Source: Sulfurisphaera ohwakuensis
Lineage (GTDB): Archaea > Thermoproteota > Thermoprotei_A > Sulfolobales > Sulfolobaceae
NCBI RefSeq assembly: GCF_009729055.1
Contig: NZ_CP045484.1
Location: 372,001-436,000 of the forward strand
DNA length: 64,000 nt
Direction: 5' to 3'
Position numbers and translations under genes: made by a program
In this document: positions 1,873-9,989 of the stretch, in pieces
Layout: every line of letters begins with the position of its first letter
How positions within the stretch are numbered: the first letter of the stretch is position 1
The notes under the pieces: model-generated
What the model was told of the DNA's origin: nothing
Seen by the model: the letters and a program-made list of their open reading frames with translations, nothing else
The model's database searches: none

Positions 1873-3129
1873 TTATTGAATAAATTTTCCTCTTAAATCA
1901 AAAAATGATGCCTCAGTAATTTTTACGTTAATCCACTCACCTAATTTATCATAATCCTTAATTACGACTGGGATATAATTAATAGTTCTTCCTATTATTG
2001 AGCCTTTTCTACCCAATTCAGTAGTTAAAACTAAAGCATTTGAACCTAAATATTCAGAGTGAACAGAATATGCTACCTCTTCATACACTTCATTAGCAAT
2101 TTTCATTCGCTGCTTCTTTATAGAATCTGGCACTTGTGGCATTGATGCGCTTCGCGTATTAGGACGTATTGAATACATTGCTAGGTGTATTCTTTCAAAC
2201 TTTATTTCTTTAATAAGATTTATTGTATTCTGAAAAGCTTCATCATCTTCTCCTGGATGACCAATTATAATATCCGTAGTTATGTTAACTATTGGTATTT
2301 TGTCTCTTATTTCCTTAACTAACTCTCTATATTCATCAACGGTATATTTTCTATTCATTAGCTTCAGAACTCTATCATCTCCGCTTTGTACGGGTAAGTG
2401 TAAGAACTTATATATTCTCTTATCTTTAATTATTTCTAATATCTCATCAATTTGTTTAATAGCTAATTCTGGGGTCATCATACCTATTCTTATCATATAA
2501 TTCCCTTCTATTTCTAATATTTCCTTCAGTAATTCTACTAAGTTGTAGTTAATATCCAATCCGTAAGCTGCAGTATCCTGTGCTGTAAGTTCTATTTCTA
2601 CAGCACCTTTCTGAACAGCCTCTTTAACAGCATTTACTATATTTCTTGGAGGATAACTTCTTAGTTTCTTTCTAGCTAATTTAGTTATACAAAAATTACA
2701 ATCTCCAGCACAACCATCAGCAATTGGTATTATTGAAATTTTACCTTCAAATATTCTAGGCGTGACTAATTCTTTACTTTCTTCAAGAAATATCTCTCTC
2801 TTGTTACTTTCCACTGCCTCAACTATTTTGTCTATACTTTGTGCTCCAACAATACTACTTTCCGGTGCTAGGCTTATTACTAATGCTGGTTGAGAACTAA
2901 CCAAACACCCAGCTATTATTAGTTTTTTTCCGATTTTTTCCAATTCCTTTATCCTTTGCTTCATTCTTTCTTCTGTTTCTAATCTAACAGCACAAGTATT
3001 CAGAACTATTACATCAGCTTGATTATAACTGTCAACTATATCATGACCTTTATCTTTTAATAAAGTCATCATTATGTATGAATCTCCTTTATTAAGTGCA
3101 CAACCATATGTTTCAATATAAACCTTCAC
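1873..3129 (-). CDS. tRNA methylthiotransferase, CDKAL1/e-MtaB type
   Basis: A 418-aa radical-SAM methylthiotransferase. The N-terminal MTTase domain carries three cluster cysteines (C10, C46, C75), the radical SAM CxxxCxxC is C140-C144-C147 (CAGDCNFC), and the C-terminus (about 355-418) looks like a TRAM domain. The archaeal family makes ms2t6A at position 37 of ANN-decoding tRNAs. Start is GTG at 3129. It diverges from the aIF2-beta gene across only 44 bp, so the two promoters overlap. Distinction from bacterial MiaB rests on the archaeal host and overall family knowledge. Confidence 0.9.
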   Translation of the reverse strand: MKVYIETYGCALNKGDSYIMMTLLKDKGHDIVDSYNQADVIVLNTCAVRLETEERMKQRIKELEKIGKKLIIAGCLVSSQPALVISLAPESSIVGAQSIDKIVEAVESNKREIFLEESKELVTPRIFEGKISIIPIADGCAGDCNFCITKLARKKLRSYPPRNIVNAVKEAVQKGAVEIELTAQDTAAYGLDINYNLVELLKEILEIEGNYMIRIGMMTPELAIKQIDEILEIIKDKRIYKFLHLPVQSGDDRVLKLMNRKYTVDEYRELVKEIRDKIPIVNITTDIIIGHPGEDDEAFQNTINLIKEIKFERIHLAMYSIRPNTRSASMPQVPDSIKKQRMKIANEVYEEVAYSVHSEYLGSNALVLTTELGRKGSIIGRTINYIPVVIKDYDKLGEWINVKITEASFFDLRGKFIQ

Positions 3130-3143
3130 AACTAATCATAAGT

Positions 3144-3152
3144 AATTTATAC
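3144..3152 (+). promoter_or_regulatory. TATA-like box for the aIF2-beta operon
   Basis: AATTTATA-type box centred about 26 bp before the GTG at 3174, the distance expected for a leaderless transcript. On the minus strand the same bases read TATAAATT in front of the divergent methylthiotransferase gene. Confidence 0.5.
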
Positions 3153-3173
3153 TTCAACCTCTTAAGATTACTT

Positions 3174-3593
3174 GTGTCTACAGAAGAAGAGTATATTAAA
3201 CTATTGGACAGATTGTATTCAAAACTACCTGAAAGAGTTCAAAAGGTCAGTGGACAGTCATTACCAAATCTGATTATATTATCAATAGGAAATAACACAA
3301 TAATAAAGAATTTTAGTGAATATTGTGATAGAATAAGAAGAGAAGATAAGCTATGTGCAAAATTCATCTTAAAGGAATTAGCAGCTCCAGGAAATGTTGA
3401 TGAAAACGGACAATTAGTCATTCAAGGAAAATTTTCTTCAGCTTCTATAAATAAAATCATGGAAAGATTTATAAAAACTTACGTTCAATGCAGTACATGT
3501 AAAAGTCTTGATACCGTTCTAATAAAAGAGAAAAAAGCGTGGTATATTTCATGTTTAGCTTGTGGTGCTAAAACACCAGTTAAACCGTTGTGA
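3174..3593 (+). CDS. eif2B: Translation initiation factor aIF2 subunit beta
   Basis: A 139-aa protein with the aIF2-beta core (KNFSEYCDRIRRED, ELAAPGNVDENGQLVIQGKFS) and a C-terminal zinc ribbon with C106, C109, C127 and C130. It is part of the aIF2 heterotrimer that brings initiator tRNA to the ribosome. The frame is open further upstream to 3096, but that part overlaps the divergent gene and is not aIF2-beta-like. GTG at 3174 gives the normal length and sits 26 bp after a TATA-like box. It is the first gene of an operon; its stop overlaps the next start. Confidence 0.93.
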   Translation: MSTEEEYIKLLDRLYSKLPERVQKVSGQSLPNLIILSIGNNTIIKNFSEYCDRIRREDKLCAKFILKELAAPGNVDENGQLVIQGKFSSASINKIMERFIKTYVQCSTCKSLDTVLIKEKKAWYISCLACGAKTPVKPL

Positions 3594-3895
3594 GTAAAAT
3601 GAAAGTTAGCTTAAATATTATAAGGAGAGAAGGTTATGTTTTTGTTAATATCTGTGAGCCTGAACTTATAGGTAAGACATTTAAAGAAGGCGAAGTAAAT
3701 CTAGTGATAAATAAGGAATTTTATGAAGGGCAAGAAGTTTCTCTTGATTACGCTTTTTCACTTCTAGATGAAGCAAACGTTGTCAGTATAGTAGGAAATA
3801 AAATAATAGAAGAAGCAGTAAAAAGAGGTTTTTTAAAAGAAGAGGGAGTAATCTCTATACAAGGAGTTAAGTTTGCACAAATATATAATATGTGA
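3590..3895 (+). CDS. DUF424 family protein
   Basis: A 101-aa archaeal protein with the DUF424 pattern: a GKTFKEGEVNLVINKEFYEG segment and a conserved alanine/valine-rich helix region ending in VSIVGNKIIEEAVKRGF. Function is unknown. Its GTG start overlaps the aIF2-beta stop by 4 nt (ATG at 3599 is an alternative) and its own stop overlaps the NMD3 start. Fixed position between aIF2-beta and NMD3 suggests a role in translation or ribosome biogenesis, which is inference from context. Confidence 0.85.
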   Translation: MSKMKVSLNIIRREGYVFVNICEPELIGKTFKEGEVNLVINKEFYEGQEVSLDYAFSLLDEANVVSIVGNKIIEEAVKRGFLKEEGVISIQGVKFAQIYNM

Positions 3896-4611
3896 GAATT
3901 ATGGCACGAAAATTTTGCGTTTTATGTGGTAGAGAGGAAGGGGAATTTATTGGCTCATTATGCGTTGATTGTTATATAAAAACCAAAGAAATCGTAAGTT
4001 TGCCAGAGAGTATAAAAGGTAAGTATTGTAAATTATGTGGAGCTGAATGGGTAAATGGCAAGTGGATACGAAGTAAGGATAAAACTCTAACACCCGTAGA
4101 ATCTATAATATATAGAGAAATTGGGAAAAAGATAGAAGTAGATCCTAATGTAGAAGAGATAAGCTATCATATCGAAAATATCTGGAAAGACGTTAATGGA
4201 CACACTTTTGTAACGCTTAATATTGAAGGCAAAATAAGAGGAAAACCTTTCACTTTAACTAAAGTTGTTGATTTAAACATAGAAAGAACTTTATGTACAT
4301 CTTGTATAAGGAAGAAATCAAGATATTATGAAGCTATTATACAACTAAGATTTAAAGAGGGAAAATTTGACGCTAAAAAGCGAACAGTCTTTGAGTCTTT
4401 CTTTACTGATGATATTATAGATAGCTTATCCGATGTGGTTGAAGGAAAAGAAGGAGTAGATTATTATTTCATAAATAAAACAGTAGCGAAAAGGCTAGTT
4501 TCTAATTTTACTTCAATGGTAAAAGACGTAAAAATTATGGAAAGTTATCAGGATGAAACAATCAGAAACGGTAAAAAATTTGCTAAATTAGTTATATCAG
4601 TTAGAGTATGA
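3892..4611 (+). CDS. nmd3: NMD3-family ribosome biogenesis protein
   Basis: A 239-aa protein with paired CxxC knuckles: CVLCG and CVDCY at the N-terminus, YCKLCGAEW, and CTSCIRKKSRYYEAIIQLR further on. This is the zinc-rich N-terminal part of eukaryotic NMD3, the large-subunit export adaptor; archaeal members lack the export tail and presumably act on the 50S subunit. Start is GTG at 3892 (overlapping the DUF424 stop) or ATG at 3901. The 3' end overlaps the RNase HII start by 4 nt, so the operon is translationally coupled. Confidence 0.88.
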   Translation: MRIMARKFCVLCGREEGEFIGSLCVDCYIKTKEIVSLPESIKGKYCKLCGAEWVNGKWIRSKDKTLTPVESIIYREIGKKIEVDPNVEEISYHIENIWKDVNGHTFVTLNIEGKIRGKPFTLTKVVDLNIERTLCTSCIRKKSRYYEAIIQLRFKEGKFDAKKRTVFESFFTDDIIDSLSDVVEGKEGVDYYFINKTVAKRLVSNFTSMVKDVKIMESYQDETIRNGKKFAKLVISVRV

Positions 4612-5234
4612 TAGTAGTTGGAATTGATGAAGCTGGTAGAGGATCATTAATTGGTCCGATGATTGTTGCTGGAGTTGCTATTAAGAATGATAGGTTAAAG
4701 TTTTTAAAGAATATGGGTGTGAAAGATAGCAAACAATTAACGAGAAATAGAAGGGAAAAATTGTTTGATATTATATGTTCTTATTCCGAGGGATTTACAA
4801 TAGTAAAAGTCTCACCAGAAGAGATTGATAGTGAAAATCTAAATGAGTTAACATATAAAGCTATGATAAAAATAATCTATTCTCTAGTAGAATTTAAACC
4901 CATTAGAATAAGTATAGATAAGGTTGGGAATACAAAAGTTGTTGAGCAAGAAATTATAAAACTTGGAATGGAACCTAACATTGTAACTAATGCAGATGTT
5001 TATTTTGTAGAGGCAAGTGCTGCAAGTATTATTGCTAAGGTTATTAGAGATAATATAATTGATACGCTTAAGTCAAAATATGGAGATTTTGGTAGTGGTT
5101 ATCCCTCAGATCCTAAAACAGTAAATTGGGTTAAGAACGTTTATAAGGAATATTTAACTCCGCCCCCTATCATAAGAAGGAGTTGGAAAATTTTACAAGA
5201 GATAGCTCCTAATTATTATATTAGAAAATGGTAA
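4608..5234 (+). CDS. rnhB: Ribonuclease HII
   Basis: A 208-aa protein with the diagnostic GIDEAGRGSLIGP motif (Asp7, Glu8), VKDSKQLT, and the NADVYFVEASAASIIAKVIRD block. It cleaves RNA in RNA-DNA hybrids, including single ribonucleotides and primers, using divalent metal. ATG at 4608 overlaps the NMD3 stop (ATGA). The end overlaps the next gene by 7 nt. Confidence 0.95.
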   Translation: MIVVGIDEAGRGSLIGPMIVAGVAIKNDRLKFLKNMGVKDSKQLTRNRREKLFDIICSYSEGFTIVKVSPEEIDSENLNELTYKAMIKIIYSLVEFKPIRISIDKVGNTKVVEQEIIKLGMEPNIVTNADVYFVEASAASIIAKVIRDNIIDTLKSKYGDFGSGYPSDPKTVNWVKNVYKEYLTPPPIIRRSWKILQEIAPNYYIRKW

Positions 5235-6307
5235 CTAACTTACCAGCTGAGGCTAAGGCAAAATGGTTAAAATATATGGATGCTAAAACTACAGAGGAGA
5301 AAATCAAAGCTCTCCAAGAATTTTTAAGTGCTGTTCCTAAACATAAAGGTACTGAAAATTTAGTATATTGGGCTAAAAGAAGGCTAGCAGAATTAAAAGA
5401 AGAGGCTCAATTAGAGAAAAAGAAATCTTCTTCACTAGGTAAAGGGCTACAATTTTTCATAGAAAAAGAAGGTGCTGGACAGGTAGTACTCTTAGGTAAT
5501 AATGAATTAAGGAACAAATTAATGAGAATTTTAACAAATGTTAAAAATGATCCTAAAGAGCTACCTATCCCAGGGATGATGGAATATCAAGATATCAAAA
5601 TTCAATTGGTTAATCCTCCCCCATTAATTTTTGAGGCTAAAGCATTAGTAGGAAAAGTGCTTGGTTTAGTAAAGAATGCGGACTCATTATTGATAGTTGT
5701 TAAGGATAGAGAGGAGTTCTTTAATATTCGTGATTTCTTAGAAAATAATGGAATATATCTTAAAAAACCTAAGGGGAAAGTAATAATAGATAGAAGTAGA
5801 TACGGTAATAGTGGTATAAGGATAGTACTCTTAGGAAAACTAATAGGTACCAATGAGTCTGAAGTGAAGAATTATTTAGAAAGTTTCGGAATTAAAAATG
5901 CGTTAGTTAAAATATTAGGAGAAGTTACTTTAGATGATATAGAGAAGGAAGTATTTGAAACAGCATTTTATAAACAGGCTATAATAGCTACTCAAGAGCC
6001 TTTTTCGTTACCAGATATTGTTGTAGTGAGTCTATTTGATATTAACAAATTAAAGGAAGCTATTTTCAGATCGTTAGATATTATTAGAGTTTATACAAAA
6101 GAGCCTGGAGAGAAACCTACATCTGAGCCTTTAACCTTAAAACGTGGCTCTACTGTGATAGATGTAGCAAGAAAATTACATAATGACCTGGCTGAGAATT
6201 TTAAATATGCTAGGGTGTGGGGAAAGTCTGTAAAATTCCAAGGTCAAAAAGTTGGTGCTGATTATGTATTAGAAGATGGTGATATAGTAGAGATACATGT
6301 TAAATAA
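5228..6307 (+). CDS. DRG/Obg-like TGS protein with decayed GTPase domain
   Basis: A 359-aa protein that keeps the layout of archaeal DRG GTPases: a helical N-terminus, a GAGQVVLLG strand, the IPGMMEYQDIKIQLV segment and a C-terminal TGS domain (about 290-359). The nucleotide-binding motifs are gone. The P-loop site reads GNNELRNK (90-97) instead of GxxxxGKS, the DxPG motif reads LVNPPPL (127-133), and no NKxD is visible. It therefore probably does not bind GTP in the normal way. It overlaps RNase HII by 7 nt as last gene of the translation operon, which suggests ribosome or translation-factor binding through TGS. That role is inferred. Confidence 0.8.
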   Translation: MVTNLPAEAKAKWLKYMDAKTTEEKIKALQEFLSAVPKHKGTENLVYWAKRRLAELKEEAQLEKKKSSSLGKGLQFFIEKEGAGQVVLLGNNELRNKLMRILTNVKNDPKELPIPGMMEYQDIKIQLVNPPPLIFEAKALVGKVLGLVKNADSLLIVVKDREEFFNIRDFLENNGIYLKKPKGKVIIDRSRYGNSGIRIVLLGKLIGTNESEVKNYLESFGIKNALVKILGEVTLDDIEKEVFETAFYKQAIIATQEPFSLPDIVVVSLFDINKLKEAIFRSLDIIRVYTKEPGEKPTSEPLTLKRGSTVIDVARKLHNDLAENFKYARVWGKSVKFQGQKVGADYVLEDGDIVEIHVK

Positions 6308-6317
6308 AAGCTTATAT
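6306..6317 (+). promoter_or_regulatory. Promoter (BRE/TATA AAAAGCTTATAT) for pilus-type genes
   Basis: AAAAGCTTATAT begins at the stop codon of the TGS gene; its TATA part is about 26 bp before ATG 6340. The same 12-mer recurs at 8219-8230 before the ATPase gene. Confidence 0.6.
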
Positions 6318-6339
6318 GTATAATGTTGAAATATATTAT

Positions 6340-8220
6340 ATGGCGGTTATTTCTAGTGGGAAGAAAAAACCATCAGATGAAAAGATTAATATATCGCAAA
6401 TAGATTTGTTATTTTATAGAACACCACTAGTAGAACCGCTTGCTAAATCCTTAGATAAAAAGCTTAAGCAAGCTGGCTTGTCAGATGATCCAAGAATTTA
6501 TGCTTCAAGGTTATTTTTCTTCTTGATTTTAGGTATAATTATTGGAGTAATGTTATTATTTCCAGGCTTTATATTTTTAAGAGAATTTGAATTAACTAAA
6601 CTATCTAAATTTGCTGTAGGCGGAATTATGTTCATACTGTTTGGTGTGATTATTCCAGTAGTGACATACTTAGTATTAATTTCTAACGTATCACAGAAAG
6701 TAGAAAGTAGAAGAATTGGAGTTGAGGCTGAAACTCCAGCATTTTCGGCTTTATTTTTAGTATTCCTTAGAAGTGGACTTTCTCCAAGATTACTTTTTGA
6801 AAATCTCTCAAAAACTAAAGCATTTAATTATATGAATAGTATAGCAAAATATATTGTGAAAAGGATTAATTTTCTAGGAGAATCGGTGGAAAAGGCAATA
6901 GATGAGTCAACTAAAATAGTTCCTTCTAAACTATATAATGATCTAATGGTAACATATATTACAGCAATTAGAACTGGTGCTCCAGTTTTTGAGACAATGC
7001 AATCTAAAATTAAGGATATCCTAAAAAATATGGAATTGCAAGCATCAAAAGCTGCGGATAATTTATCGGGTGTTGGAGAAGGTTACGTTACATGGTTAGC
7101 TTCAGGTTTTATTAGCTTTTTCTTAATATTAATTCTAGAAGCCGTTTTTCCCCAATTGCATGTATTACCAATTGGAATATTAGGGGCTTTTGCTGTCCTA
7201 GGAATTCCAATTGTAAACATTTTATTTGTATGGGTAGTAGATCAAACGCAGTATAAATTCCCAGAAAAACAATTGCGAGCTGACAAGATTTTCTTAATGT
7301 TGTTCCCAGTAGGAATTATTCTTGGTATAATTTTAATGATAGTTCTAGAGCCTATAATAGCTAAGATAACTCATCAAATTCCTGTAGCTCCTAAATACAT
7401 GTTGCTAGGTCTATTTACACTTTCTGGAAATTTAAATTATATTCCAGCTACTGTGATAGGATTAACAATAGGTCTTATACTGTCGCTTATTCCTCCGTAT
7501 ATTATAGTAAAAAGAGAATTGAATGAAGGTAGCGGATATGATATCTATGTAGCTAGATTCCTCAGAGCTATTGGCGAAGGTTCAAGAGCAGGATTATCTC
7601 CAGAAGCAGTAATTAAAAACCTTAAAGATTCTAAAGAATTAGGTAAACTACAAAACATATTAAGAAGAGTATATGCATACATTAATCTAGGTATACCGAT
7701 TAAGGATGCTTTTAGAAAGGCTTCAGATATTATTATTGATTTCTCCACAAAAATTGCATTTACATCGTTAGCTGATATGATAGAGATAGGGAGTCTAACA
7801 CCAGAATCAGTAGAAACTTTAGCAGATCAATTAGATGCACAAATAAGAATTAGACGTGAATATTATGCTAAAATAAAGATATTACTTTATATGCCTTACA
7901 TAGGTTCTATTTTAGCTTTAATTGCAACAATTATATTATCATCAGCTATAATATCCTTATTAAGTTCCAGTAGTTTCATTACAAGTTATGGTCCACTAGC
8001 TGCTGCACAAGTTTTAGTTCCTAAAGCAGTATATATAGCGTCATTATCATCTGTGTTTAATGCATATACAGCTGGGTTATTGGTGGGTAAATTAGCTAGT
8101 GGAAGAATAGCAAACGGATATTTGCATGCTATAATTCTATTGATAATCACAATGATTCTAGTATTGTTAACACTAAGTATCAAATTCTCATTTACATCTC
8201 CAGTAGCTCCCACTCTATAA
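6340..8220 (+). CDS. Type IV pilus/type II secretion membrane assembly protein (TadC/ArlJ-like, duplicated T2SSF)
   Basis: A 626-aa integral membrane protein with two T2SSF-like cytoplasmic modules. The first follows two N-terminal membrane helices (about 57-80 and 92-115) and includes FLRSGLSPRLLFENLSK; the second includes IGEGSRAGLSPEAVIKNLK. More helices lie near 245-300, 315-340, 355-395 and at the C-terminus (about 515-545, 600-620). It should form the inner membrane platform for a pilus or secretion machine powered by the ATPase encoded next. ATG 6340 fits the TATA-box distance; an ATG at 6316 overlaps that box and is less likely. No pilin gene is nearby, so I cannot say whether it serves Aap, Ups, Bas or another system. 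Confidence 0.85.
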   Translation: MAVISSGKKKPSDEKINISQIDLLFYRTPLVEPLAKSLDKKLKQAGLSDDPRIYASRLFFFLILGIIIGVMLLFPGFIFLREFELTKLSKFAVGGIMFILFGVIIPVVTYLVLISNVSQKVESRRIGVEAETPAFSALFLVFLRSGLSPRLLFENLSKTKAFNYMNSIAKYIVKRINFLGESVEKAIDESTKIVPSKLYNDLMVTYITAIRTGAPVFETMQSKIKDILKNMELQASKAADNLSGVGEGYVTWLASGFISFFLILILEAVFPQLHVLPIGILGAFAVLGIPIVNILFVWVVDQTQYKFPEKQLRADKIFLMLFPVGIILGIILMIVLEPIIAKITHQIPVAPKYMLLGLFTLSGNLNYIPATVIGLTIGLILSLIPPYIIVKRELNEGSGYDIYVARFLRAIGEGSRAGLSPEAVIKNLKDSKELGKLQNILRRVYAYINLGIPIKDAFRKASDIIIDFSTKIAFTSLADMIEIGSLTPESVETLADQLDAQIRIRREYYAKIKILLYMPYIGSILALIATIILSSAIISLLSSSSFITSYGPLAAAQVLVPKAVYIASLSSVFNAYTAGLLVGKLASGRIANGYLHAIILLIITMILVLLTLSIKFSFTSPVAPTL

Positions 8221-8230
8221 AAGCTTATAT
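8219..8230 (+). promoter_or_regulatory. Promoter (BRE/TATA AAAAGCTTATAT) for the secretion ATPase
   Basis: Identical 12-mer to that at 6306. It starts inside the stop codon of the membrane gene. Here the predicted transcript has a short leader with GGTGAT at about 8251, a ribosome site for ATG 8262. Confidence 0.6.
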
Positions 8231-8261
8231 AGAAGAAAAGCATAATAAAAGGTGATATATA

Positions 8262-9989
8262 ATGGACTTAAAACTTAATATATTCGGGAAAAATAATACT
8301 AATAAAAAGAATGATAAAGAATTAATAGACTTAGATTTACCATATTCACTTTATCCATTATTTGTAACTTCAGCCTCATTTGAAGGAGAAGTTCAATCGG
8401 ATTATGATATAGATTTAAACCAGATTATACCAGAATATATAGCAAAAGATTTTGATGCACATAAAATTGAATTATCAATAGCAAAACCCCATGTATTTAT
8501 TACTTATGATGAAGAAAAAGGTATCTATAAGTATAATTTAGTAGAACCTCCTCTTGATCTTAATACATTTAAAAATTATGTTATACTAATATCTGAAATT
8601 GAGAGGAATCTTCTTTCAAATGCTGAATATGTTGAGCTAGGTAAAATCTTAGAAGAATTAAGTATAAAGAGGAAAGATCTAAATGTTTTCCAAGGTAAAA
8701 TAGGAGAGTATAAACAATTATCTACCCCATTTAAGGTTGCTCTATACTATGTGTTAAGGAATATGTTTGGTTATAACATTATAACTCCACTTTTATTATA
8801 TAATAAAGTAGAAGATATATCTGTTAGTGGTATAAACTTACCTGTTTACGTATATCATAGAGAATTCGAATATACTCCAACAAATATTATATTTACTAAA
8901 AATATGAGAATGTTTAATATAAATATTGACGGAGAGGAAATAATTGACGAATTAGTTTTAAGATTAATCTCCTTATCTAATAAAACTATTTCTGTTGCAA
9001 ATCCCATAATGGATGGTATTTTACCTAAGGGAGATAGAATTGCGGCAACTTTTAGAAGAGAAGTTTCTGCTAATGGTTCTTCGTTCGTAATAAGAAGATT
9101 CTCAGAAAGCCCTATAACTATATTAGATCTTATAAATTCAAAAGTATTATCTCCACAAGCTGCTGCCTATTTATGGTATGCTATAGATATGAAATTATCT
9201 TTCATGGTTATAGGAGTTACTGGAGCTGGAAAGACAACAGTTTTAGGTTCTATACTTAATTTAGTGAAAGAGTCAATGAAAATATTAACTATAGAAGATA
9301 TTCCAGAATTAAGATTAGCTCAAGATAATTGGGTTCAACTATATGCTAGGCCAGCTTATGGAGGAATGGGAAAAGAAATAACTTTAATGGACTTGTTAAA
9401 ACTCGCATTAAGATATAGACCGGATATAATAGTTGTTGGTGAGATTAGAGGAGAAGAAGCTTATGTATTATTCCAAGCAATATCAACTGGACACGGAGGT
9501 GCAACTACTTTTCACGCTTATGATAGTGAGAGCGCAATAAAGAGACTAATGAATGAACCATTAAATATTCCAAGGGAATGGATTCCTATGATGAATATTA
9601 TAGTTACAGTTAGAAGGCTACCAGTATATGTTGGAGATAAAATATTATTGAGAAGAAGAGCTGTAGCAATAGACGAGATTGTATCTTATAATGATTTAAG
9701 GAGAACAGTTAGATGGGATCCAACAACTGATAGTCATATTGTAGACTATGAAGCCATGCAAGTTTTAAGAGCAAGAACTGAGGAGGCTGGAAAGAACTGG
9801 GATGAAGTTAAGGCTGAGATAGAGAGAAGGGCTGAATATCTTAAGTTATTAGCTTCTGCTAGGCCCATAGTTCAAAGTAAAGAAAGTTACAAGCTACTGA
9901 AGAAGTACATAATTAAGTATAGTTTAAGACCAGTAGAAGCTATGAGAGAAGTCCAAGCCATGGTGGGAATCAAACAACAGACTCCATAA
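8262..9989 (+). CDS. Type II/IV secretion ATPase (GspE/TadA/ArlI family)
   Basis: A 575-aa hexameric-type ATPase. Walker A is GVTGAGKT (318-325), Walker B is IIVVGEIRGEEAY (about 390-401), and the His box is HGGATTFHA (411-419). It energises pilus assembly together with the membrane protein encoded just upstream. The N-terminal 200 residues are divergent, as usual for the family. The gene has its own promoter and a GGTGAT ribosome site, in contrast to the leaderless upstream gene. Its last 20 bp overlap the convergent glycosyltransferase gene. Confidence 0.92.
   Translation: MDLKLNIFGKNNTNKKNDKELIDLDLPYSLYPLFVTSASFEGEVQSDYDIDLNQIIPEYIAKDFDAHKIELSIAKPHVFITYDEEKGIYKYNLVEPPLDLNTFKNYVILISEIERNLLSNAEYVELGKILEELSIKRKDLNVFQGKIGEYKQLSTPFKVALYYVLRNMFGYNIITPLLLYNKVEDISVSGINLPVYVYHREFEYTPTNIIFTKNMRMFNINIDGEEIIDELVLRLISLSNKTISVANPIMDGILPKGDRIAATFRREVSANGSSFVIRRFSESPITILDLINSKVLSPQAAAYLWYAIDMKLSFMVIGVTGAGKTTVLGSILNLVKESMKILTIEDIPELRLAQDNWVQLYARPAYGGMGKEITLMDLLKLALRYRPDIIVVGEIRGEEAYVLFQAISTGHGGATTFHAYDSESAIKRLMNEPLNIPREWIPMMNIIVTVRRLPVYVGDKILLRRRAVAIDEIVSYNDLRRTVRWDPTTDSHIVDYEAMQVLRARTEEAGKNWDEVKAEIERRAEYLKLLASARPIVQSKESYKLLKKYIIKYSLRPVEAMREVQAMVGIKQQTP

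Follow-up and report, generated by a model that had tools for sequence, protein, structure and literature searches.

A DRG-type pseudo-GTPase of Sulfolobaceae and its probable role as a nucleotide-independent ribosome factor

The DRG orthologue of Sulfolobaceae is a pseudo-GTPase, a status for which sequence, conservation, phylogeny and structure prediction all give good support, and we consider it probable that this protein works as a nucleotide-independent ribosome factor. Conservation of the DRG family extends from archaea to humans. The member described here is encoded in the window, by which we mean the whole 64,000-nt stretch of Sulfurisphaera ohwakuensis DNA that was analysed, and the genome to which the window belongs is complete and 2.8 Mb in size. 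A sequence-only reading had described the gene product as a DRG-type protein that has lost its GTP-binding motifs and kept its TGS domain, and had suggested a pseudo-GTPase turned into a fixed ribosome or RNA adaptor. The pseudo-GTPase part of that suggestion stood on all four lines of evidence, while the fixed adaptor is a plausible reading, and the one we prefer on the basis of homology to Rbg1/Rbg2 and of the conserved domains.

Loss of the nucleotide site

The reading frame of the DRG-type gene contains zero internal stops, and it holds the segments from which its origin had been recognised, namely GAGQVVLLG (residues 82-90), PIPGMMEYQDIKIQLV and the TGS domain (Table 1). The sequence-only reading was accurate in giving the G1 place as GNNELRNK (residues 90-97) and the DxPG place as NPPP (residues 129-132). 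Its claim that the GTP-binding motifs had been lost was correct but understated, as G2, G4, G5 and the G4-G5 helix have gone as well. Searching with the PF01926 GTPase domain gave no match in the window protein at E<=1, compared with 7e-17 for a P-loop-bearing relative from the same order and 2.6e-25 for a canonical DRG.

Table 1 Features of the DRG-type gene and of the gene run that it closes (window coordinates)
Feature	Position	Strand	Evidence and remarks
eIF2-beta gene	3096-3593	+	NF003067 1.5e-59; opens the overlapping run
DUF424 gene	3590-3895	+	PF04242 4e-25; second in the overlapping run
NMD3 gene (60S-type subunit factor)	3892-4611	+	PF04981 3.1e-46; upstream, same overlapping run
RNase HII gene	4608-5234	+	TIGR00729 2.3e-59; 7-base overlap with the DRG start
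DRG-derived pseudo-GTPase gene	5228-6307	+	ORF with ATG start, 359 aa plus stop
N-terminal helix and helix-turn-helix (HTH) domain (residues 1-68)	5228-5431	+	Apex PKHKGTE; alignment to Rbg1/Rbg2
G-domain core, first part (residues 82-175), nucleotide site lost	5471-5752	+	Without PF01926 match at E<=1
G1 (P-loop) relic GNNELRNK	5495-5518	+	One residue shorter, without G-K-S/T; alignment
G3 relic NPPP replacing DxPG	5612-5623	+	Asn in 31/31 Sulfolobaceae proteins
S5D2L domain inserted in the G domain (residues 176-246)	5753-5965	+	PF16897 8.6e-06 (26.1 bits, under the curated cut-off of 35.2); strands and helices of the model
G-domain core, second part (residues 247-283)	5966-6076	+	NKxD, SAK and the intervening helix absent; alignment, model
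TGS domain (residues 284-359)	6077-6304	+	PF02824 6.3e-21 (74.6 bits, cut-off 22.2)

Aligning the proteins of the family showed that the Walker A motif GxxxxGK[S/T] occurs in 0/31 Sulfolobaceae proteins, whereas in the remaining families of the order 43/43 distinct proteins carry it. The G1 place in the Sulfolobaceae alignment reads GNNELRNK, GDNQLKNE, GRQELKNR and similar, the TT segment of switch I is deleted, and G3 takes the form N-P/T-P, with the Asp changed to Asn in all 31 proteins. Shortening has also affected the NKxD-to-SAK stretch, from which both G4 NKxD and G5 SAK are missing. Motifs that had shifted yet remained intact were ruled out by a regex scan of the 31 Sulfolobaceae proteins, none of which contained the pattern [GA]xxxxG[KR][ST]. 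Scanning in this way returned stray NKxD strings in 2/31 and DxPG strings in 3/31 proteins, all of them misplaced. In the separate scoring of motif columns, one Sulfolobaceae row came out as NKxD-positive through a chance TKFD. Judged by these alignments, the loss of the GTP site is fixed throughout the sampled family and not a local decay, and the Sulfolobaceae DRG would be unable to bind GTP in the usual manner.

Structure prediction with AlphaFold2 agreed with the loss that had been read from the sequence and gave a confident DRG-like model minus the P-loop and the G4-G5 helix. In this model, built by AlphaFold2 from 75 sequences (mean pLDDT 89.8, pTM 0.68), strand 85-90 enters helix 92-102 almost without a loop and makes no P-loop turn, and strand 250-255 leads to strand 264-268 with no helix between the G4 and G5 places. 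In a P-loop-bearing relative modelled with AlphaFold2 as a control (L145, pLDDT 88.5), a five-residue loop precedes the corresponding helix and a helix is present at 272-282.

Because the positions of G90, Asn129 and Pro131 are conserved in 31/31 Sulfolobaceae proteins, the former pocket is still under constraint. Together with the invariant Asn of G3, this conservation would be expected if a nucleotide or another small ligand were still bound through a remodelled pocket. We regard such binding as most improbable, since the P-loop turn, the Lys, the Mg ligand, the base-reading NKxD and SAK have all been lost, and since few residues of the G core are invariant.

DRG descent and conservation of a single-copy gene

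Alignment by phmmer ran end to end against yeast Rbg2 (7.1e-31) and Rbg1 (3.5e-27), E-values that indicate homology far above chance. The top ranks of the Foldseek search were taken by Rbg1 (4a9a, 7rr5) and Rbg2 (7nrc), with E from 1.4e-22 to 1.7e-17; superposition on 4a9a (1.4e-22) by VIA-align gave Z 21.9 over 282 residues with an rmsd of 4.9 A. Considering this rmsd and the pTM of 0.68, the arrangement of the domains is less certain than their folds. Alignment and model both place the S5D2L insertion between G3 and G4, and the HTH region of the model consists of helices 7-18, 22-35 and 43-68. In the alignment, PKHKGTE at the HTH apex falls on QKNKAT of Rbg1, K40 standing opposite yeast Rbg1 K22, and this apex lysine is invariant in 31/31 Sulfolobaceae proteins. 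According to excerpts of two papers, Lys22 of DRG1 is the residue hydroxylated by human JMJD7 (PMC11400632, PMC8629797).

Invariant residues among the 31 Sulfolobaceae proteins number 35/68 in the HTH and 24/76 in the TGS domain, against 14/131 in the G core; the HTH and TGS are the best-conserved domains of the protein. The first ~22 residues (MVTNLPAEAKAKW..., window 5228-5293) form an additional helix that is near-invariant in the Thermoproteota clade and missing from yeast and canonical archaeal DRGs. Two NCBIfam identities were rejected, a YchF-related one (30.4 bits, cut-off 387) and RelA/SpoT (21.9 bits, cut-off 499.2), both matches lying on the TGS region.

Each of the 31 Sulfolobaceae genomes contains one open copy of the gene, 350-361 aa in length. 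Whole-gene dN/dS ranged from 0.013 to 0.061 in the six usable, unsaturated species pairs (L001-L003, L007-L008, L016-L017, L022-L024, L025-L028 and L023-L021; L001-L004 was saturated), and the gene is under strong purifying selection. Although bare motif loss is just what decay is expected to produce, the chance that we are dealing with a decaying gene, a sequencing error or a misassembly is close to nil, as the gene is stop-free in 31/31 Sulfolobaceae genomes and as its dN/dS is that low; the intact frames and dN/dS refute a pseudogene or an error.

Protein matches were obtained in 60/60 relatives, the match in one of them (G037) being YchF only. We also looked for a canonical DRG elsewhere, as the sequence-only reading had proposed. 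With a canonical DRG as the query (L228), the window-type protein came first in 31/31 Sulfolobaceae genomes, at 32-36% identity over its full length, and all later matches were weak. In the window's genome these were NOG1-type, HflX and YchF proteins, which keep GxxxxGKS/T, DxxG and NKxD. The search found no canonical DRG in the window's genome or its 30 relatives, and a second one was ruled out, the remaining matches being HflX, NOG1-type and YchF proteins with intact motifs. For the DFRP partner that holds DRGs in yeast, PF16543 was matched in 0/31 Sulfolobaceae genomes and likewise in 0/14 controls.

The genes for eIF2-beta, DUF424, NMD3, RNase HII and the DRG-type protein follow one another with successive end/start overlaps of 4, 4, 4 and 7 bases. 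These overlaps bear out the earlier placement of the DRG-type gene at the end of the aIF2-beta/NMD3 operon, with RNase HII sitting between NMD3 and it. Directly after the DRG gene, window 6316-9989 encodes a T2SSF (FlaJ/UpsF-like) membrane protein and a T2SSE pilus-type ATPase, and T2SSE ATPase matches occur at 4/7 titled Sulfolobaceae loci. Across 80 titled loci, RNase HII lies near DRG in at least 47, at least 40 of those on the DRG strand, and the eIF2-beta/DUF424/NMD3 run lies near DRG in at least 8, all 7 titled Sulfolobaceae loci being among these 8; the counts are lower bounds because contig ends cut several of the 80 loci. The linkage of RNase HII and DRG is old, while that of NMD3 and DRG is mostly a Sulfolobaceae trait and, given its distribution over these loci, recent.

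These neighbourhoods bear on an alternative in which the pseudo-GTPase and NMD3 would jointly serve the biogenesis or quality control of the large subunit, the pseudo-GTPase acting as a placeholder at the factor site of the immature 50S and not on ribosomes engaged in translation. The presence of NMD3 in the same overlapping run and in 7/7 titled Sulfolobaceae loci fits this alternative, as does the fold search, which also returned NOG1 of pre-60S particles through its G domain. We nevertheless think it unlikely, since NMD3/eIF2-beta lie near DRG in just 8/80 loci and RNase HII is the older neighbour, since the NOG1 matches span mostly the G fold, and since the whole-length relatives Rbg1/Rbg2 work on 80S ribosomes.

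A putative static factor on the ribosome

The preferred reading, a nucleotide-independent ribosome factor, draws on what has been described for the yeast homologue. As described in section 7 of PMC8040806, Rbg2 occupies the factor site of a stalled yeast ribosome, where its TGS domain contacts h5/15 of the 40S subunit, its S5D2L domain contacts the A-site tRNA, and its HTH and G domain contact three elements of the 60S subunit, namely the stalk base, H89 and the sarcin-ricin loop. The HTH, S5D2L and TGS domains that make these contacts in yeast are kept in the Sulfolobaceae DRG, and the switch has been lost. With the GTP site gone and the ribosome-contacting parts kept, the protein probably functions without GTP, and from its homology to Rbg1/Rbg2 we infer that its action on the ribosome is probably that of a static factor.

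Our proposal places the protein in the factor-binding site, where the HTH and the remnant of the G domain would rest on the large subunit, S5D2L would face the A-site tRNA and TGS would lie on the small subunit; slow or stalled ribosomes could in this way be steadied at the A site with no GTP cycle. Its passage on and off the ribosome would be set by affinity alone, or by displacement through EF2/EF1A, in place of the GTP cycle. For yeast Rbg1, GTPase activity is reported in excerpts of PMC3510508 and PMC8629797 to be absolutely required, and a GTPase-inactive mutant fails to rescue. The archaeal protein therefore cannot act exactly like Rbg1 and must exit the ribosome by other means.

Independence from GTP would also fit starved cells, and could point to a hibernation or stress factor that plugs the factor-binding site at low energy without nucleotide. 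The factor site taken by the yeast homologue overlaps those of eEF2 and Hbs1 (PMC8040806), which is consistent with such a plug. We hold this to be highly unlikely, however, as the gene runs together with growth-type translation genes.

TGS and DRG are absent from the text of a paper on the Sulfolobus acidocaldarius ribosome (PMC10516650) and from that of a paper on the essential genome of S. islandicus (PMC6249222). A search of literature available without subscription found no report of a Sulfolobus or crenarchaeal DRG pseudo-GTPase, and combining Sulfolobus, DRG, GTPase and TGS domain gave no literature match. An older GTPase classification may mention such a protein.

With yeast Rbg1/Rbg2 and human DRG1/DRG2 the Sulfolobaceae protein has in common the HTH, the split G fold with its S5D2L insert and the TGS domain, and with Rbg1/DRG1 also the lysine at the HTH apex (K40 here, Lys22 there). 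It differs from these proteins in having neither the G1-G5 motifs nor the G4-G5 helix, in its shortened switch regions, and in the ~22-residue extra N-terminal helix, which is common to other Thermoproteota DRGs. The DRG-like proteins of other Sulfolobales and of most Thermoproteota share with it this N-terminal helix (NLPxEA), the HTH apex PKHKG(T/A)E, S5D2L and TGS, and likewise occur as one gene per genome, often adjoining RNase HII. They differ in that Walker A is kept (43/43 distinct rows of the order), NKxD nearly always so, and only the DxPG of G3 is altered, to DTPP, EAPA and similar.

YchF/OLA1 has an Obg-type G fold and a TGS domain in common with the Sulfolobaceae DRG (VIA Z 14.8), but it is a separate protein of the same genome, with intact motifs and without the HTH/S5D2L arrangement. 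A GTPase fold that is retained after loss of the nucleotide site is also reported for the pseudo-GTPase domains of p190RhoGAP (PMC5593906) and for degenerate septins (PMC10731463). These belong to unrelated families with other roles, whereas the Sulfolobaceae DRG is a single-copy translation-type factor without an active paralogue.

Graded loss of G motifs across Thermoproteota

We aligned 188 distinct proteins and built a tree of 122 rows from which the motif columns had been removed; L233, L274 and L277, which are fragmentary or have split frames, are not part of it. L061, the YchF of a DRG-less genome, was excluded from the order count, and L106, which the regex scores as G1-lost yet which retains GRS, was counted as intact in the tree analysis. 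Outside Sulfolobaceae, the order is represented by 43 rows, all of which have Walker A and none of which has DxPG at G3, where DTPP, DTPA, EAPA, EAPS and similar are found.

Nine Thermoproteota rows (families f17, f51, f60, f61, f64 and f65), which we infer to be lineages of the ammonia-oxidiser type, make up the canonical DLPG part of the tree together with yeast Rbg1/Rbg2. The other 111 rows, reached by a branch of length 1.73, nearly always lack the G3 glycine. The exceptions, L162, L165 and L253 (DTPG) and L055 (EAPG), speak against a simple loss: as single rows nested among glycine-less relatives, they imply that the glycine was regained, or lost many times.

Sulfolobaceae form one clade inside the order, with 100% support. 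Loss of Walker A extends to L223 and to the long-branched rows of f20, f28, f47 and f66, and parsimony requires three changes for this distribution. A single origin of the loss in Sulfolobaceae and L223 was rejected (p-AU 2.8e-31), and a single origin in Sulfolobaceae and the long-branched rows was borderline (p-AU 0.049). Since this second grouping is borderline, the alignment and tree firmly point to two independent losses of Walker A, three being the parsimony count.

The rows without Walker A outside Sulfolobaceae are L230, L231, L232, L270, L275, L276, L278 and L279 (f20/f28/f47/f66) and L223 (f35), and the DRG-type proteins of f20/f28 have no recognisable G motif. In L103, L104, L107, L108, L109, L202 and L207, which belong to several families, the Lys of Walker A is replaced by Arg (GxxxxGRS), possibly a half-way state of Walker A loss. 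Members of f23 and f31 keep Walker A and have Lys at the place of the G3 Asp; G4 is degraded besides in L208, L218, L221, L222 and L264 of these two families.

Across the phylum sample (n=397 genomes), 383 genomes had a match at 1e-15 and 14, G037 among them, had none. G037, which belongs to the window's order (family f8; 99% complete, two contigs), has YchF (L061) and no DRG. Genomes of this kind indicate that DRG can vanish altogether. Two matches were seen in a few of the 397 genomes and were split genes or doubled contigs where inspected (G252, G344 and G429 excluded).

A wider reading, which we put forward tentatively and as a possibility short of an even chance, is that most Thermoproteota DRGs are no longer GTPase switches. 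In this reading the G3 glycine would have gone early, and with it GTP hydrolysis as the first function to be lost; nucleotide binding would then have been abandoned at least two times, and given up most fully in Sulfolobaceae. The conserved archaeal role might be the GTP-independent steadying of A-site tRNA by HTH, S5D2L and TGS, with GTP control kept or sharpened towards eukaryotes.

The family-wide extent of the loss, the change of G3 across the rest of the order and the similar losses elsewhere had all been missed by the sequence-only reading. Within one phylum, DRG proteins form a graded evolutionary series from intact through G3-altered to fully lost. In Sulfolobaceae, a family with genetically tractable archaea, nature has done away with the GTP cycle, while the protein lives on as the sole DRG copy. 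What a ribosome factor does structurally would thereby be separated from its nucleotide switch, and the family may offer a direct test of DRG function minus GTP.
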